The notes under the pieces are model-generated. The model was given only the letters and a program-made list of their open reading frames with translations, searched no databases and was not told the DNA's origin. This document shows positions 20,592-59,068 of a DNA stretch of 64,000 nucleotides, in pieces (positions within the stretch are counted from its first letter, which is position 1; each line of letters begins with the position of its first letter). The translations under genes were made by a program, and so were the position numbers. Source of the DNA: Ancylomarina salipaludis (GTDB lineage Bacteria; Bacteroidota; Bacteroidia; Bacteroidales; Marinifilaceae); assembly GCF_004122035.1 (NCBI RefSeq), contig NZ_SAXA01000001.1, positions 372,001 through 436,000 of the forward strand, in the 5' to 3' direction.

Positions 20592-21950
20592 TTAAAAAGT
20601 TAGTGTAAATGTTGTTTTTTCATCAGGAATAGAATGTGCAGTAATTGTACCACCATGCAAACGTACAATTTGCTTTGATAGAGCCAATCCAATTCCGGAT
20701 CCCTTAGGTTTGGTGGTAAAAAATGGAATAAAAACTTTATCCAACACCTCCTTTATTATACCTTGCCCGTTATCGGTAAGCTGAATCGAAATCCGTCCAC
20801 GCTTATTCAAATAGGCCCTCAAACTTATTTTAGGGTTCTCGGTATGTTCAAGTGCATGAATTGAATTCTTTATCAAATTAATCAATACCTGCTCAATTAA
20901 AAGTTCGTCAGCTGAAAGCTCAATCGATTCAGGATCAATACTGATACTACACTCAATATTACGATTTTTCATCTCTTCTTTCATCAACATATGGATGTTG
21001 TCGAAAAGTTGCTTAACAGGAAAAATACTAAAATTCGGATTCGGTATCTTAGTCAGATTTCGATAAGTATCAACAAAATGCAACAAACCCGAACTACGTT
21101 TTTGAATTGTTGCCAAAGCCATCTTCACTTCGGTAATCGTTTCTTGATCTTTTTCATCAAACTTACTGACATTACTCATCCCAAAATCATCAAGAATAGT
21201 AGTCAATGTATTCGATAAAGAAGAAATGGGGGTAATAGAATTCATGATTTCATGAGTTAAAACACGAATCAATTTTTGCCACGATTCTATTTCCTGTTCC
21301 TCAAGCTCGTATTGGATATTTTTAATCGAAACCAGAATAACCTGTCTGTCGTTTATTTTAAACTCGGTAGCATAAATCGCCAATTGCAAAATATCATCAT
21401 TATCATTAACCTTGATCAGCGTATTTTCACCATGCTTAAGTTTCAGAAGCGCCTCAACAAATTCAGGACTGAAACTTTCTAAATCCTGAATTTTAGTCAG
21501 ATTACTAACCTGAAACAGTTTCTTGGAAGCATTGTTTATCATCTCAACCGAACCATCGCGATGAAATGCTATCAGTGAAATTCCAATATGCTGAATAACG
21601 GTTTGCAAGTAAAAATAATGCTCCTCCTTCTCGGCCCTGATTTTCTGAAAATCAGAAATCACCGCATTAAAAGACTCCTGCAATTTATCAAAAGAACTCC
21701 CTAAGCCCTGCACCTTAAAATTTCTTGTAAAATCAGAATAGCGTATCGATTCCAGGAAATTTTTAAGCAACCTATTGGTTTTTTCAACGTACTTAATCAT
21801 CTCGTAAATCTGATAGATAATTACAAGAAAAATAAGACTGGCTGTCGTATAATAGTTATTCTTTGACAAAACAAAAGCCAATAGAAATATAGCTGCAGAA
21901 AGCGCTACAATCCTAAAAATAAAATTAAGTCTGAAGCTTTTATAAACCAT
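20592..21950 (-). CDS. Membrane sensor histidine kinase (NtrB/NtrY-like)
   Basis: This 452-residue kinase has two hydrophobic segments (about residues 12-45) with almost no periplasmic loop, then a HAMP-like linker, a PAS domain (about 115-215), a phosphoacceptor helix with THEIMNSITP (His near 233) and an ATPase domain. The N box NLIKNSIHAL, the G1 box DNGQGI and the G2 box GSGIGLALSKQIV are intact. The lack of a real external loop suggests it senses a membrane or internal signal. It overlaps the end of the upstream response regulator gene by 11 bases, so the two are co-translated partners. Confidence 0.92.
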   Translation of the reverse strand: MVYKSFRLNFIFRIVALSAAIFLLAFVLSKNNYYTTASLIFLVIIYQIYEMIKYVEKTNRLLKNFLESIRYSDFTRNFKVQGLGSSFDKLQESFNAVISDFQKIRAEKEEHYFYLQTVIQHIGISLIAFHRDGSVEMINNASKKLFQVSNLTKIQDLESFSPEFVEALLKLKHGENTLIKVNDNDDILQLAIYATEFKINDRQVILVSIKNIQYELEEQEIESWQKLIRVLTHEIMNSITPISSLSNTLTTILDDFGMSNVSKFDEKDQETITEVKMALATIQKRSSGLLHFVDTYRNLTKIPNPNFSIFPVKQLFDNIHMLMKEEMKNRNIECSISIDPESIELSADELLIEQVLINLIKNSIHALEHTENPKISLRAYLNKRGRISIQLTDNGQGIIKEVLDKVFIPFFTTKPKGSGIGLALSKQIVRLHGGTITAHSIPDEKTTFTLTF

Positions 21951-23313
21951 ATTTCTCTAATCTTCGATACAAGGATGTTCTAGTTAAACCAAGTTCTCCG
22001 GCTGCTTTCGAAATGTTTCCCTGATTGGTTTTTAATACTTTCTGAATGATATTCTTTTCCACCTCTTCCAAATTGTAACTATCCAGCTCAACATCGCTTT
22101 GTTGCGAATGTCCGGTATTAATCTGAAAATCGCTGGGTTGCAAATTATTATCATCGGCCATAATTACTGCACGCTCCATCAAATGCTGAAGTTCGCGTAC
22201 ATTTCCGGGCCAGGAATAATCGTATAATTTATTGATACACGCTTTTGAAAGTGGACCAAAACTCTTCTTATACTTCTTCGCATAAATCTTCAAGAAATGT
22301 TCTGCCAATAAAGGAATATCCTCGTATCGTTCGTTTAGTGCCGGCAAACTAATCTCTACTGTATTAATTCGGTAAAGCAAATCCTGTCTGTAATTTTCCT
22401 CAGCTACCATCTGAAGAATAGGCATATTTGTTGCACAAATCAGTCGAATATCAATCGGAATCGGTTTGTTTGACCCCACACGAATAACTTCGCGTCTTTC
22501 AAGAACCGTCAGTAATTTAGCCTGCATAGGCAAAGATAAGTTACCTATTTCATCCAGAAACAGTGTCCCTCCTGAGGCGATTTCAAAACGACCGGGACGA
22601 TCCGCTCTTGCATCGGTAAAAGCACCCTTTACATGACCAAACAATTCACTCTCGAATAAGTTTTCATTAATTGAACCCAAGTCAACACTTACAAACACCT
22701 CATCCTTTCTCGACGAATTTCGATGAAGAGCTCGCGCAACAAGTTCTTTTCCCGTTCCATTCTCTCCCAATATTAAAACATTGGCATCTGTTACCGCCAC
22801 CTTTTGTATGGTCGAAAAAACAGTTTGCATTTCAGGAGAAACACCAATAAAATCATTGAAAGGCTGATCCAAAACCGCATTCAACTCTTTTTGCTTGGAT
22901 TTTAATTGCTTCACCTCTTCTTTCGATTTTCTAAGTTTGATCGCTGAAGAAATTGTGGCCATTAGCTTTTCATTTTGCCAAGGCTTTAAAATAAAATCAG
23001 TCGCACCTGCCTTGATTGCTTTTACAGATTTCTCAACATCACCATAAGCCGTGATGAAAAGCACAACCGCTCGGGGATCAATTTCAAGAATTCGATTCAA
23101 CCAATGATAGCCCTCCTGCCCACTAATGGCATCCTTTGTAAAATTCATATCCAAAAGAATCACATCATAGGTTTCCTGCTTCATCAATTTGGGAATCAAT
23201 TCAGGATCTGATTCGGTGTGAATCAACTCAACATGCTGCTTCAACAGCAATTTCAATGAAAAAAGAATATCTTCATTATCATCAATTGCTAAAATTTTTC
23301 CGACTTTACTCAT
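21940..23313 (-). CDS. Sigma-54-dependent response regulator (NtrC family)
   Basis: The protein has a receiver domain (phosphoacceptor Asp55 in ILLDMNF, acidic pocket Asp11-Asp12) and a AAA+ domain with Walker A GENGTGKE near 176. The sigma-54 contact loop reads GAFTDA instead of GAFTGA and is followed by FLDEIG. A C-terminal Fis-type helix-turn-helix (NISKAAGELGLTRTSLYRRL) completes it. It should drive sigma-54 promoters when phosphorylated by the kinase encoded next to it. The divergent permease operon has a sigma-54 promoter and dyad sites in the shared intergenic region, making it the likely target. Confidence 0.94.
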   Translation of the reverse strand: MSKVGKILAIDDNEDILFSLKLLLKQHVELIHTESDPELIPKLMKQETYDVILLDMNFTKDAISGQEGYHWLNRILEIDPRAVVLFITAYGDVEKSVKAIKAGATDFILKPWQNEKLMATISSAIKLRKSKEEVKQLKSKQKELNAVLDQPFNDFIGVSPEMQTVFSTIQKVAVTDANVLILGENGTGKELVARALHRNSSRKDEVFVSVDLGSINENLFESELFGHVKGAFTDARADRPGRFEIASGGTLFLDEIGNLSLPMQAKLLTVLERREVIRVGSNKPIPIDIRLICATNMPILQMVAEENYRQDLLYRINTVEISLPALNERYEDIPLLAEHFLKIYAKKYKKSFGPLSKACINKLYDYSWPGNVRELQHLMERAVIMADDNNLQPSDFQINTGHSQQSDVELDSYNLEEVEKNIIQKVLKTNQGNISKAAGELGLTRTSLYRRLEKYGL

Positions 23314-23390: not shown

Positions 23391-23406
23391 TGTCCAAAAT
23401 CGAACA
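23391..23406. promoter_or_regulatory. Dyad site 1 for an NtrC-type activator
   Basis: TGTCCAAAATCGAACA has the form TGTnC-N6-GnACA. It matches dyad 2 in outer bases and spacing. It lies 78 bases upstream of the regulator start and about 140 bases upstream of the -24/-12 promoter. Confidence 0.55.
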
Positions 23407-23443
23407 TCAAGATAGGACTAAAAATCCAAAATCAAAACAAAAA

Positions 23444-23459
23444 TGTTCGATTTCGTACA
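23444..23459. promoter_or_regulatory. Dyad site 2 for an NtrC-type activator
   Basis: TGTTCGATTTCGTACA has the form TGTnC-N6-GnACA, the same as dyad 1. A weaker third copy (TGTTCGAAAATCGATCA, 23465-23481) starts 21 bases on, two helical turns away, which fits cooperative binding of oligomers. Confidence 0.6.
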
Positions 23460-23546
23460 AAATTTGTTCGAAAATCGATCATTTTGCAAATCTAAAAATG
23501 ATTAAATTACTGCATGATAAGCTGATATACAACAAACAAGATTTTT

Positions 23547-23562
23547 TGGCACGAAACTAGCT
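23547..23562 (+). promoter_or_regulatory. Sigma-54 (-24/-12) promoter of the permease operon
   Basis: TGGCACGAAACTAGCT carries a perfect -24 half (TGGCACG) and a GC at -12, with exactly 10 bases between GG and GC. Only the -12 box departs from TTGC (TAGC). The start of transcription would be near 23573, about 150 bases before the permease ATG. Confidence 0.8.
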
Positions 23563-23721
23563 GATAAATAAACTCATAAAGTATTCGAGTGTAATCATAA
23601 ATTCTGTTTTCTATTATAAAAATTTTGGTAATTGAAGAAGGAAAATAAATCAGCCGAAAATTTAAAATAATATTATTTTAAATTCGCAAAACAATTCTCG
23701 AAACAACAGATATATTAATTA

Positions 23722-26070
23722 ATGTTCAAAATTTTTCTAAATACTGTTTTCAGGAAACTCTATCTTCAAAAGGGATATTCACTGATTAATATTTTAGGTT
23801 TAGCTACAGGAATTACTTGTAGCTTACTTATTTTATTATGGGTTGAATACGAATTAAGTTTTGATTCATTTCATCAAAACAAAAGCCAGATATACAGTGT
23901 TTACGAAAATCAGACCTATGCTGATGGTGAAACTTTCACCGTTTATGCAACCCCTGCGCCACTTGCCGCCAATCTGAAAGAAAATATTGATGAAATTGAT
24001 AAGGCTACTCGCATTTCAAGAACATGGGGGAAATTAATGCTAAGCACTGAAGGATCAACTTTTGTTGAAAATTCGGGATTATGTGTTGATCCGGATTTCT
24101 TCAAAATATTTAGTTTTCCGGTCCTTCTTGGCAACCCCAACCTAGTTATGCCGGATGAACGATCAATTGTTATTACTGAAAAGATGTCCAAACGCTATTT
24201 CGGAGAGGACAATCCATTGGGAAAAACCATCAGCATCAATACAAATCTTAAATATCATGTCAGTGCGGTTCTTAAGGACTCGCCTAAAAATTCGTCACTC
24301 TATTTTGACTTTTTATTACCCTTCAACTTTATTAAAGAAAATTGGGGATTTAATCTAAACAATTGGGATTCTCATGCATTTTTAACGATAATCCAAATTA
24401 AAAACAACACCTATATACCAAGTTTAGAGACTAAAATAAAACCCTATATCAAACAAAACCTAAAACAATCAAATACCGATCTGGCATTACAAAAGTTTTC
24501 TGATTATCACCTCCATTCAATCAATGGGAACAAACTCAGTCCCATTCTGTACATCAGAATTTTCACCCTGGTTGCGTTTATTATCTTATTGATTGCCTGT
24601 TTTAACTATATGAACCTATCCACAGCACGTTCAGAACGACGAGCCAGAGAAGTTGCTGTAAGAAAAGTTGTAGGCGCGCACAAAAGAGGATTGTTCGCTT
24701 TATTTATGGCTGAATCAATTTTCATCAGTCTGCTAGCTTTTGGATTAGCAATTGTACTCGTGGAGTTACTTCTACCCTTTTTTAAGGAATTAACACAAAG
24801 AGATCTCACCTTAAAATTATCCAATCCAACTTTACTTTTATCTTTTGCTGCAATCGTTCTGTTTACCGGTTTTGTTTCGGGAAGCTATCCAGCTTTATAT
24901 TTATCATCGTTTAAACCCATTCGAATCCTCAAGGGAAAATTATACCGCGATTCCCATTTATTTCGTAAATTGATGGTTATTATTCAATTTATAATATCAG
25001 TAGCTCTCATTATTTGCTCAAGCGTTATTTACAGACAATTGGATTTTCTTCAAGATAAAGATGTTGGCTACCAGAAAGACAACATCATTTACATTGAGAT
25101 GCTGGATAATTTCCAGAAACACTATCCAAAATTGAAGGAAAATCTGATTAAAATACCCGGTGTACTTAAGGTTACTGCGGCCAACCAAATGCCCATTAAT
25201 TTTACAAATTCAACATCAGATATTTCTTGGAAAGGGAAGTCGAAAGATGCAAAAGATGTCTTGTTCCAGTTAAGTTTCGTCGATTATGATTTTATTGAAA
25301 CTTTTGAAATGGAAGTCCTACAAGGACGTGCTTTTTCATCAAAACAAGGCGCTGACAGTCTAAAACTGGTTATTAACGAAGCTGCTGCTTCCGTTATGAA
25401 TATGAAATATACCATTGGAGAAAAAGTCAAAATTTGGGATTACGAGGGCGAAGTCATTGGTATTGTCAAAAATTTCAATTTTAACAGCTTACAAGTTGGT
25501 GTCAAACCCTTACTCATGCTTATGAGCTCCGATGAATTTAAATATATTGCAATTAAAACATCGGGAGACGAACAACCCATAATAAACAAAATTAGGGAAA
25601 CCTGGAGCAAATCTTTTCCTAAAATACCTTTCTCATATCGCCTCTTGAAAGATGATTTCTCATATTTATACAAAGCCGAATCACGCATGAGTCTGGTTTT
25701 TATATCCTTTACTCTAATAGCGATAATTATATCGGCACTGGGCTTATTTGGCTTGTCATCATACATTATTGAACAGAAATATAAGGAAATGGGGATCCGA
25801 AAAGTTTTTGGCGCTGAATTTCAAAACCTGTTAAGATCATTCCTCTACCGTTTTCTGAAATGGATATTACTAGCCAACCTTATTGCCTGGCCAATTGCTT
25901 ATTTTCTTATGCAATGGTGGTTAGCAGGTTTTGCTTATCGAATTCATATTTCGTGGATGGAATTTTTGGGAGCTGGCCTTCTGTCTATCCTAATTGCCTT
26001 TATAACGGTTTTTTATCAGAGTTATAAAATATCAACAATTGCCCCTATAAAAGCAATTAGATACGAATAA
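23722..26070 (+). CDS. ABC transporter permease, MacB/FtsX type (first)
   Basis: This 782-residue permease has an N-terminal membrane helix (GYSLINILGLATGITCSLLI), a periplasmic MacB-like core domain (about 45-270), three helices with an FtsX domain (about 285-410), a short helix near 425, a second periplasmic domain and a final FtsX-like block of three helices (about 660-780). The segments ARSERRAREVAVRKVVGA and YKEMGIRKVFGAEF are the typical coupling regions for the ATPase. Such long permeases are common in Bacteroidota and may work in lipoprotein, peptide or drug handling or in envelope stress. The gene is first after the sigma-54 promoter, with the ATPase 42 bases downstream. Confidence 0.9.
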   Translation: MFKIFLNTVFRKLYLQKGYSLINILGLATGITCSLLILLWVEYELSFDSFHQNKSQIYSVYENQTYADGETFTVYATPAPLAANLKENIDEIDKATRISRTWGKLMLSTEGSTFVENSGLCVDPDFFKIFSFPVLLGNPNLVMPDERSIVITEKMSKRYFGEDNPLGKTISINTNLKYHVSAVLKDSPKNSSLYFDFLLPFNFIKENWGFNLNNWDSHAFLTIIQIKNNTYIPSLETKIKPYIKQNLKQSNTDLALQKFSDYHLHSINGNKLSPILYIRIFTLVAFIILLIACFNYMNLSTARSERRAREVAVRKVVGAHKRGLFALFMAESIFISLLAFGLAIVLVELLLPFFKELTQRDLTLKLSNPTLLLSFAAIVLFTGFVSGSYPALYLSSFKPIRILKGKLYRDSHLFRKLMVIIQFIISVALIICSSVIYRQLDFLQDKDVGYQKDNIIYIEMLDNFQKHYPKLKENLIKIPGVLKVTAANQMPINFTNSTSDISWKGKSKDAKDVLFQLSFVDYDFIETFEMEVLQGRAFSSKQGADSLKLVINEAAASVMNMKYTIGEKVKIWDYEGEVIGIVKNFNFNSLQVGVKPLLMLMSSDEFKYIAIKTSGDEQPIINKIRETWSKSFPKIPFSYRLLKDDFSYLYKAESRMSLVFISFTLIAIIISALGLFGLSSYIIEQKYKEMGIRKVFGAEFQNLLRSFLYRFLKWILLANLIAWPIAYFLMQWWLAGFAYRIHISWMEFLGAGLLSILIAFITVFYQSYKISTIAPIKAIRYE

Positions 26071-26112: not shown

Positions 26113-26796
26113 ATGATAAAGACAAACAACTTAATGAAAAAATTCAGAACCAATGAGGTGGAAACCACTGCTCTGAATAACGTAAACCTGGAAATAAATG
26201 AAGGTGAATTTGTTGCTATCATGGGGCCCTCCGGTTGTGGAAAATCGACGCTACTTAATATTCTGGGTTTATTGGACAACCCTAGTAGTGGCGAGCTTTT
26301 TTTCTACAACGAACGTGTTGACGGATATAATGAACGACAACGAACCAATCTCAGAAAAGAAAACATTGGCTTTGTTTTCCAAAGTTTTAATTTGATTGAA
26401 GAACTAACCATTTATGAGAATGTAGAACTTCCCTTACTCTACATGAAAGTTTCAAGTTCGGAGCGAAAAAGACGTGTCAATGAGACCTTAGACAGAATGA
26501 AAATTATGCACAGAGCCAAGCATTTCCCCCAGCAATTATCCGGAGGACAACAACAACGAGCTGCCATTGCCCGTGCGGTTATCACAAACCCAAAACTCAT
26601 TTTAGCCGATGAGCCGACTGGGAATCTCGACTCAACCAATGGAGAAGAGGTGATGAATCTGCTGACTCAGCTCAACGAGACGGGAACCACCATCGTGATG
26701 GTAACCCACTCCCCTTCAGATGCGGATCGTTCTCATCGAATCATTCAACTTTTCGACGGACATATTGTAACTGAAAATATGAGACAAAAACTGTAA
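26113..26796 (+). CDS. ABC transporter ATP-binding protein (LolD/MacB type)
   Basis: This 227-residue ATPase has Walker A GPSGCGKST (residues 38-46), a Q-loop in FVFQSFNLIEELT, the signature LSGGQQQR near 142, Walker B LILADEPTGNLDS and a switch histidine in MVTHSP. It belongs to the LolD/MacB/FtsE group that powers FtsX-like permeases without moving substrate through a channel. It sits between two long permeases with gaps of 42 and 45 bases and should serve one or both. Confidence 0.95.
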   Translation: MIKTNNLMKKFRTNEVETTALNNVNLEINEGEFVAIMGPSGCGKSTLLNILGLLDNPSSGELFFYNERVDGYNERQRTNLRKENIGFVFQSFNLIEELTIYENVELPLLYMKVSSSERKRRVNETLDRMKIMHRAKHFPQQLSGGQQQRAAIARAVITNPKLILADEPTGNLDSTNGEEVMNLLTQLNETGTTIVMVTHSPSDADRSHRIIQLFDGHIVTENMRQKL

Positions 26797-26841: not shown

Positions 26842-29271
26842 ATGCTCAAAAATTTCTTTATCACTATTATTCGAAATATATCAAGAAATAAGTTCTATTC
26901 TGCTATCAATATGGTAGGATTGTCCATAGGATTAGTCTGTACTATCTTAATCACGCTCTTTATTCGTGATGAATATTCCTACGACAAGTACAATCTTAAA
27001 CACGACCGAATTTACAGAATTGGAATAGATTTTGTCCTCAACGGGAATCGTGACCGCACAGCCACTTCAGCTTTACCCATGGGTCCGACCTTCAAACAAT
27101 ACTTCCCCGAAGTGCAAGAATATGTACGGTTTATAACCGCGCACAAACAACAAATTACATATCAAGACAAAAACTTTTACGAAGAAAATATTGCCTATAC
27201 AGACTCAACTCTTTTTAATGTTTTCTCATATGAATTAGTAAAAGGAGATCCGAAAAAGGCACTAACACAACCTTTCTCTGCAGTATTAAACGAAACCTTA
27301 GCTCATAAATATTTTGGGGATGAAGATCCTATTGGCAAGATTATTAAAGTTGATGAAAGACACCAGTTTACTGTCACAGCTATCATAAAAGACATTCCGT
27401 CCAATTCACATTTTAAATTCAACATCCTTTATTCCATCAGTACATTGGCTAAACGAAGTGGAAACGCCAACTTCAACACTATTGAACCCATCTCCTTTTG
27501 GAATTTTAGCTATTACACTTTCATTTTACTCAAAGAGAATAGCTCTATTGATAAAGTTGAACAACGATTCCCGCTTTATTATCAAAAATACATGAACGAC
27601 TTTGGCGAACAATTTGGGATCGATTTCAAAATAATATTTCAAAAACTTACAGATATCCATTTAAAATCAGATTTAAACTGGGATGCTCCAACAGGCAATA
27701 TAAAGTACATCTATATTCTATTGGCAATTGCCATCTTTATCCTATCAATTGCAGGAATCAATTATATGAATATGGCCACTGCAAGATCAAGCAAAAGAGC
27801 CAAAGAGGTTGGTATGCGTAAAGTTGTTGGTGCTCAAAAAGAAAGCATCATTCGTTTATTTCTGTTAGAAAGCTTAACTCTCACATTTGCTGCTTTAGGC
27901 ATCGCAATCATAATTGTAGAATTAATCCTTCCTGTTTTCAATATGATGGTCAACAAAGATCTGGTTCTAAACATCGTTCAAACGCCTGACATCTTTTTAT
28001 TTATTATTTCTATAGCACTAATCCTTGGGATACTCTCAGGATCATACCCGGCATTTTATTTATCCGCCTTTCGTCCGGTAGCAATTCTTAAGGGAAGAAG
28101 AAAAGCAAGAGGTGGCAACAAGCGTTTAAGACAAATTCTGGTTATTTGCCAGTTTACAGTTTCAGCTATCATGATTAGCGGAACAATCATTGTCATTTCG
28201 CAACTCTTTTTCCTGAAAAATAAGGATATGGGATTTGATAAAGAAAACATTCTTATTGCTCCTATTCGTGACTCCTCGCTCAGGACCAATATGAATATTT
28301 TCAAAACTGAACTCAAGAAAAACTCGAATATTGAAGCTGTAGCAACATCTAATTCAATAATCGGATTCTCTAATTCAAAGACCGTTCATTTGTATGAGAC
28401 AGCCGATGGAATGAAAGAGCATGCTTTAAATTTCAACATAATTGACTTTGATTATATTGATTTAATGAAATTAAGATTGATGCAAGGGCGTAAATTCAAT
28501 AAAGCAATTAAGACCGACTCTACAACCGCCTTTATTGTCAACCAATCTGCAAGTAATAAATTTAAATGGGGAGCCAATGCCATAGGCAAAAAACTTCAAT
28601 TTGGCGTTTCATTTGGAGAACATAAAGAAGTAAGATTAGGGAAAGTCATCGGTGTTATAACTGATTTTCATTATCAAACCCTAAGCACAACAATTGAACC
28701 CCTGAGCCTCTTTATTTCTGAAGCCCCTGAAGACAGAGATGTTATTTATATTAAAATCAGACAAACTAATCAAAATGAAACCATAAGCTACATTCGGGAT
28801 GTATGGAAATCCTTTAGTCCCAATCATGCATTTCATTATTTCTTTTTGGATGATAAAATCAATAAGAGATTTAAAACCGAAGAACGATTGACTCTACTGT
28901 TTATTATTTTTTCATTCATCTGTATTTTAATCGCTTCAATGGGATTATTTGGTTTATCCTCCTTTATGGCTGAACAACGAAACAAAGAACTCGGCATAAG
29001 AAAAGTCCTGGGAGCATCAACCAATAATATTGTATATCTCTTAACCCGGGAATTTCTTAAACTCATAATAATCGCCAACCTGATTGCAGTTCCCTTTGCT
29101 TATTGGGCTCTTAATATTTGGCTACAGGATTTTCCTTATAGAATTGTTATACATGCATGGGTTTTTATTCTAACTCTGATTATTACACTCATTATCGGTC
29201 TTTCTACAGTCTCGTGGCAATCCTTTAAAGCTGCCAAGTCTGATCCGGTTATGGTCATTAAATATGAATAG
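26842..29271 (+). CDS. ABC transporter permease, MacB/FtsX type (second)
   Basis: This 809-residue permease has the same plan as the first: N-terminal helix (FYSAINMVGLSIGLVCTILI), a MacB-like periplasmic domain, a middle FtsX block (ATARSSKRAKEVGMRKVVGA) and a C-terminal FtsX block (RNKELGIRKVLGAS). It is clearly a paralogue of the permease at 23722-26070 but diverged, so the two may form a heterodimer around the shared ATPase. No membrane-fusion protein or TolC-like gene follows in the operon. Confidence 0.9.
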   Translation: MLKNFFITIIRNISRNKFYSAINMVGLSIGLVCTILITLFIRDEYSYDKYNLKHDRIYRIGIDFVLNGNRDRTATSALPMGPTFKQYFPEVQEYVRFITAHKQQITYQDKNFYEENIAYTDSTLFNVFSYELVKGDPKKALTQPFSAVLNETLAHKYFGDEDPIGKIIKVDERHQFTVTAIIKDIPSNSHFKFNILYSISTLAKRSGNANFNTIEPISFWNFSYYTFILLKENSSIDKVEQRFPLYYQKYMNDFGEQFGIDFKIIFQKLTDIHLKSDLNWDAPTGNIKYIYILLAIAIFILSIAGINYMNMATARSSKRAKEVGMRKVVGAQKESIIRLFLLESLTLTFAALGIAIIIVELILPVFNMMVNKDLVLNIVQTPDIFLFIISIALILGILSGSYPAFYLSAFRPVAILKGRRKARGGNKRLRQILVICQFTVSAIMISGTIIVISQLFFLKNKDMGFDKENILIAPIRDSSLRTNMNIFKTELKKNSNIEAVATSNSIIGFSNSKTVHLYETADGMKEHALNFNIIDFDYIDLMKLRLMQGRKFNKAIKTDSTTAFIVNQSASNKFKWGANAIGKKLQFGVSFGEHKEVRLGKVIGVITDFHYQTLSTTIEPLSLFISEAPEDRDVIYIKIRQTNQNETISYIRDVWKSFSPNHAFHYFFLDDKINKRFKTEERLTLLFIIFSFICILIASMGLFGLSSFMAEQRNKELGIRKVLGASTNNIVYLLTREFLKLIIIANLIAVPFAYWALNIWLQDFPYRIVIHAWVFILTLIITLIIGLSTVSWQSFKAAKSDPVMVIKYE

Positions 29272-29301: not shown

Positions 29302-29586
29302 ATGAGAGAATTATGTATCCCAATACCTATCAATATAGGATCAGATCTAGCCGAGATTGAAGTTAAGATTAATAAGAAGAATCGAAAATTCCTCTATCGC
29401 TTGGAGTCCTTCCCATGGGAAGTTGACGATCATGATATTCGAGACGGCATTACCGAAGATTTGCTGAAAATTTATCAGCTCAAAAAAACAATAGCCAACT
29501 ACGATAAAGACTGGGAATTAATTCAAATCTACCCTCCTGTCGAAAAAGCTAAAATCATTCAAATTCTCTTTAGAAAAAAACAATAA
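29302..29586 (+). CDS. Small conserved-looking protein of unknown function
   Basis: This 94-residue protein follows the second permease by 30 bases and is likely the last gene of the sigma-54 operon. It has no signal peptide, membrane segment or cysteine pair after the N-terminal region (one Cys at residue 5). The sequence is mixed charged with a predicted beta-alpha pattern: AEIEVKINKKNRKFLYRLES, then an acidic stretch around VDDHDIRDGITEDLL, then a helix and a C-terminal strand. I do not recognise the family. Position suggests a cytoplasmic helper or feedback element of the transporter, but this is inference only. Confidence 0.65.
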   Translation: MRELCIPIPINIGSDLAEIEVKINKKNRKFLYRLESFPWEVDDHDIRDGITEDLLKIYQLKKTIANYDKDWELIQIYPPVEKAKIIQILFRKKQ

Positions 29587-58834: not shown

Positions 58835-59068
58835 CAAAGAAAACCAATTAATTATACTATTAAAACCATCATTTGGGACACCACTCCCAAAGTCATGGAG
58901 AACTCAGTCTCTTTATGATCTATGGTTTTGCCTATTTTAACCAATAACCAGACCAAATGACACAAACTATTCAATTACAACACATAAGACCAAGTTTATT
59001 TTAAGATCTAAGCTATCAAAGTGTTCGGCTACGTCACAATGCTGTTCATAATCGAACACATCAAAAAA

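Follow-up and report, generated by a model that had tools for sequence, protein, structure and literature searches.

The window, that is the whole 64,000-nucleotide stretch of Ancylomarina salipaludis DNA analysed here, contains a two-component system on the minus strand and, divergent from it, an ABC transporter operon on the plus strand. Orthologues of 95-97% identity come from Ancylomarina. The genes flanking the intervening region are:

20592..21950, minus strand: partner histidine kinase, 452 aa, with a HATPase_c domain
21940..23313, minus strand: response regulator, 457 aa, with a receiver, a Sigma54_activat AAA+ domain (GAFTDA loop) and HTH_8, a Fis-type HTH
23722..26070, plus strand: permease 1, 782 aa, duplicated MacB_PCD/FtsX, ADOP/DarB-like
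26113..26796, plus strand: ABC ATPase, 227 aa, assigned by domain search
26842..29271, plus strand: permease 2, 809 aa, duplicated MacB_PCD/FtsX
29302..29586, plus strand: conserved 94-aa protein, without a Pfam or NCBIfam match

Consistent with the sequence-only reading, which had posited that the divergent regulator/kinase pair acts through sigma-54, the regulator has the receiver, Sigma54_activat AAA+ and HTH_8 domains of the sigma-54 enhancer-binding class, the kinase gene follows it, and the genome encodes one sigma-54 gene (rpoN; Sigma54_DBD 178 bits in a 488-aa frame). The AAA+ loop reads GAFTDA rather than GAFTGA, a variant listed for Desulfovibrio among those expected to retain activation (PMC4641369). 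By hydropathy, the window kinase has a single above-threshold run and two paralogues have two; the N-terminus reads as two hydrophobic helices joined by a very short loop, a predicted topology which suggests a kinase of the intramembrane-sensing type. The permeases resemble DarB (the darobactin exporter), ADOP and MacAB-TolC in architecture, but against the ADOP and DarB families (TIGR03434 and NCBIfam NF038008) they reach only 285 and 150 bits, both below the curated cut-offs of 622 and 700.

The 94-aa protein matched no profile in Pfam or NCBIfam, and its single-sequence fold has low confidence (mean pLDDT 54). Eight regions from relatives retain the operon and extend far enough to show this gene; it is syntenic in six of them (and was not called in L313 and L315), which fits the operon membership proposed for it earlier. 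In one Ancylomarina genome (L315) the operon lacks both permease 2 and the 94-aa protein. The Marinifilum and Labilibaculum operon opens with an HlyD-type adaptor that is missing from Ancylomarina, while the rest, small protein included, is mostly syntenic. A more distant genome (G026) is missing the divergent operon and has kept the regulator and one trans site.

Between the regulator and permease 1 lie the following elements:

23391..23406, no strand: dyad 1, TGTCCAAAATCGAACA, upstream operator copy, Ancylomarina only
23407..23414, minus strand: TANCTTGR, TATCTTGA, candidate -7 box for the promoter of the divergent regulator
23444..23459, no strand: dyad 2, TGTTCGATTTCGTACA, primary predicted operator
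23465..23481, no strand: dyad 3, TGTTCGAAAATCGATCA, 17-bp degenerate tandem copy
23547..23562, plus strand: sigma-54-type promoter TGGCACG-N4-TAGCT, TGGCACGAAACTAGCT

The letters described earlier, two 16-bp dyads with a degenerate third copy and a TGGCACG-N4-TAGCT promoter, were all recovered at these positions. In the -24/-12 element, GG at 23548-9 is followed by ten bases and then GC at 23560-1, and the operon transcript is predicted to start near 23573. Dyad 2 begins 103 bp before the T of TGGCACG and lies 21 bp, or two helical turns, from dyad 3. The box as originally written, TGTYC-N6-GWACA, occurs four times in the window, whereas shuffling gave 0.42 +/- 0.79 and not one of 100 shuffles reached four; with one mismatch allowed the window count was not above chance. 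Although this form thus stands above chance in the window, the informative operator is better written TGTTCG-N4-CGAACA. The window promoter is the only exact match to TGGYACGN4TWGCW in the 4.15 Mb genome, and the sigma-54 consensus alone, with up to one mismatch, is not enriched genome-wide (52 matches versus 57 in the reversed control), so that the evidence rests on the conjunction of boxes and promoter and on its conservation.

Whether related genomes share the boxes had been set beforehand as a test capable of refuting the proposal, and they do. Dyad 2, dyad 3 and the -24/-12 element are conserved across 21 aligned divergent regions (a 22nd, L104, was excluded for having a different neighbour gene), with TGTNCG-N4-CGWACA as the dyad 2 consensus, the right half retained in dyad 3, and the promoter stretch TTTGGCAYGAAA almost invariant. 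Pairwise identities, which overstate independence because the compared genomes are related, averaged 91% over the 12 core columns of dyad 2 versus 46% in its own 4-bp spacer, and reached 79% in dyad 3, 87% in the -24/-12 span and 76% in the 37 bp separating dyads 1 and 2, the last two versus 49% in the spacer that runs from dyad 3 to the promoter. Two details of the earlier description need adjustment: a conserved pair of dyads does exist, but it consists of dyads 2 and 3, dyad 1 being present in 5/5 Ancylomarina-type regions and degenerate in Marinifilum and Labilibaculum; and the GG-N10-GC spacing holds in the window, whereas relatives keep GG and, in nearly every copy, the G of the -12 element, but the C is variable, often giving GT, or GA at other targets. 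The TANCTTGR box is in register on the regulator strand in 21/21 regions and resembles the Bacteroidota -7 box TAnnTTTG and the SM5 motif TAnnTTGY (PMC9723704). It may serve as the promoter of the regulator gene, the expected transcript start of which is overlapped by dyad 1.

The broad box had also been proposed to define a regulon to be found by scanning for copies near sigma-54-type promoters. By itself it discriminates little, with 41 matches genome-wide against 24 in controls and many copies within genes, and the search was therefore narrowed to the perfect palindrome TGTTCG-N4-CGAACA, of which the 4.15 Mb hold four copies, three upstream of genes and one inside a gene. A composite pattern, TGTTCR-N4-CGWACA followed 49-101 bases downstream by GGYAY-N7-G, matched the genome exactly four times and the reversed control not at all; a fixed pattern of this kind may miss weaker regulon members. 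These sites, and one variant, are:

Window divergent region: composite site 1, permease-ATPase-permease operon
C8: composite site 2, MacAB-TolC-like operon
C12: composite site 3, PD40/tricorn/S41 protease, tricorn-type
C53: composite site 4, DUF5916 outer-membrane protein
C53:95304-95387: TGTCC-variant site, TonB-type beta-barrel (none in controls)

The regulon proposal is thus upheld in its narrower form, the copies standing in phase upstream of sigma-54-type promoters. Box and promoter recur at family orthologues of the C12 (25/27), C53 (22/22) and C8 (19/25) targets, although, since these orthologue counts rely on a score threshold, setting pattern counts beside their controls is the cleaner test. 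The same boxes therefore precede at least four other envelope genes or operons, and one regulator probably runs a small envelope-defence programme; the putative assignment of the trans targets to the window regulator rests on the identity of the operator. A further full dyad fitting the broad box, TGTTCATAATCGAACA, lies between convergent genes at 59043-59058 of the window and was left out of the regulon because no promoter match is nearby. Related genera (L275, L290) have a further target family, a conserved 321-aa protein with no Pfam match, whose gene is preceded by this operator and promoter.

Presence of the operator follows presence of the regulator. Over 59 family genomes the composite pattern gave 76 matches versus 1 in the control, spread over 28 genomes: all 26 with an orthologous regulator (83-100% identity) and 2 of the 33 without one. 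The matches in these last two genomes fall within ORFs and were disregarded. The Fisher probability for 26/26 versus 2/33 is about 1e-14, a figure which overstates independence because the genomes are related. A phylum-level sample of regulators of roughly 52-73% identity, from Pedobacter, Pontibacter, flavobacteria and Bacteroidales MAGs, extends this association: the 500 bp upstream of 52 regulators with a TR[TAN][AS]LYRR recognition helix contain the dyad in 40 cases (0.9 expected from dinucleotide shuffles) and tandem dyads 20-23 bp apart in 25 (0.00 expected), while regulators with another recognition helix have the dyad in one of five. The divergent genes examined phylum-wide are mostly an adaptor, an ATPase and an FtsX permease.

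Distances from the start of the dyad to TGG cluster at 70-72, 80-82, 92-94 and 102-104 bp, with a phase concentration of R = 0.91 at 10.5 bp over 76 distinct sites and p = 0.0007 in a Monte Carlo test on seven locus/lineage spacings. The FtsX genes in G038 and G039 were not counted because their spacing of 86 is out of phase. Paired dyads thus sit on one face of the helix within 70-200 bp upstream of the promoter, as in an NtrC-type UAS, and such phasing is expected if activation proceeds by looping or direct contact.

Elsewhere in this genome, three paralogous sigma-54 regulator modules (L070, L071 and L073, on C2, C5 and C52) each adjoin ABC/FtsX genes and a TGGCAT promoter. At least two of them have distinct dyads of their own, GTGTTGG-N5-CCAACAC and TTAGACA-N5-TGTCTAA, in the same helical phase (equivalent to 69.5 and 81.5), and none of the three carries the TGTTCG-N4-CGAACA operator. 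A cobalamin riboswitch (RF00174, 88 bits; L074:7272-7471, minus strand), followed by a terminator-like hairpin, precedes a sigma-54-type response regulator gene by about 200 bases. On C2 (L075:4894-12131), a sigma-54 activator and a 797-aa sensor-like gene stand ahead of apparent lactate-utilisation genes, with TGGCATTTCTTTTGTC in between.

With nine full-length enhancer-binding proteins (EBPs) in the genome, four of them (the window regulator and the three paralogues) beside ABC/FtsX operons, the dyads might be bound by one of the eight remaining EBPs and the divergent regulator be a mere neighbour. We consider this improbable, as across the phylum the operator adjoins this regulator and goes with the recognition helix of the latter, the presence of the operator tracks the regulator orthologue in every one of the 26 genomes, and two of the three close paralogues have different dyads while none has this one. 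Nearly as improbable, if marginally less so, is a role of the dyads as operators by which the regulator gene is repressed or autoregulated from an ordinary sigma-A promoter, the TGGCAC match being incidental. The conserved TANCTTGR box between dyads 1 and 2, the overlap of dyad 1 with the expected regulator start and the lack of enrichment of the sigma-54 consensus alone would all suit such an arrangement, but it leaves aside the phased GGYAY-N7-G downstream of the same box at trans targets and a -24/-12 span nearly as conserved as the dyad. Autoregulation of the regulator may exist in addition.

That palindromes and a -24/-12 match have met by chance in AT-rich intergenic DNA is scarcely credible: the chance-level count of one-mismatch dyads in the window is in its favour, and it is contradicted by the conservation, the 76 versus 1 composite matches, the phasing and the co-occurrence with the regulator. 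We hold it highly likely that the region is the operator and promoter of a predicted two-component, sigma-54-dependent switch with an envelope export and repair regulon in trans. From the observed sequence, conservation, phasing and co-occurrence we infer the course of phosphorylation, binding and activation as follows. The kinase would sense an envelope signal and phosphorylate the divergent NtrC-type regulator, dimers of which would bind tandem TGTTCG-N4-CGAACA dyads two helical turns apart and so face sigma-54 polymerase at a TGGYAY-N7-G promoter 70-104 bp downstream, where ATP hydrolysis by the regulator would open the sigma-54 complex. The local output would be the permease-ATPase-permease set and the small protein; in trans, the same regulator would drive the MacAB-TolC-like operon, the tricorn-type S41 protease, the DUF5916 protein and the TonB-type barrel. 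A physiological theme of envelope export and repair is suggested by this list of targets, and it agrees with accounts of sigma-54 and the bacterial exterior (PMC3162934) and of sigma-54 and envelope stress in Flavobacterium psychrophilum (PMC9723704).

Several known systems are close to the one proposed. The F. psychrophilum study maps -24/-12 promoters of a sigma-54 regulon including protein-quality-control and envelope-stress genes (PMC9723704); the promoters and the envelope-stress genes are shared features, whereas its own gene list comprises chaperones, Lon and gliding, and the section considered matches no activator to its operator. An in silico prediction of sigma-54 control of COG0577/FtsX-like ABC permeases in Bacteroidia, described by its authors as first evidence (PMC12316311, 2025), pairs this promoter class with this transporter class, but the passages considered describe neither an operator nor a partner activator, nor a regulon of several operons, and the terms UAS and "upstream activating" are absent from the main text. 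Regulators of the NtrC/ZraR/AtoC type have the same receiver, AAA+ and Fis HTH arrangement, the same tandem dyads 70-170 bp upstream of -24/-12 promoters and the same dependence on the face of the helix; what differs here is the TGTTCG-N4-CGAACA operator, the GAFTDA loop, the exporter and repair targets and the Bacteroidota lineage. The biochemistry of NtrC-type activation is well known.

Bce-type modules of Firmicutes (BceRS-BceAB) likewise place a two-component system beside an ABC transporter with an FtsX-type permease, and the kinase N-terminus here, judged by hydropathy, may be of their intramembrane-sensing kind. Assignment to the Bce-type detoxification modules, which have an OmpR-type regulator and a BceB-type ten-helix permease, was rejected: the regulator is of the sigma-54/NtrC type and the permeases are duplicated MacB_PCD/FtsX proteins, MacB/ADOP-like and often accompanied by a periplasmic adaptor. 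Since the kinase N-terminus suggests intramembrane sensing, a wider and rather doubtful possibility is that the system is an ancient, phylum-wide Bacteroidota counterpart of Bce/Cpx-type defence, in which the kinase reads the state of the FtsX/MacB exporter and the sigma-54 regulator fires a trans repair programme via one conserved operator.

The kind of system is thus already known, and the predicted window switch is a well-supported addition to it. Operators of Bacteroidota sigma-54 activators seem hardly to have been described so far, and the open literature searched had none of this kind; judged by that literature, the operator and the regulator paired with it appear new, as do the phasing and the trans regulon. 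Sequence here links a single activator to its operator, recognition helix and target genes, and a simple pattern suffices to find regulon members. This provides a testable model in which exporters, outer-membrane proteins and a tricorn-type protease would be coupled to envelope stress in marine Bacteroidota, a coupling which the same operator would extend to Pedobacter and flavobacteria.
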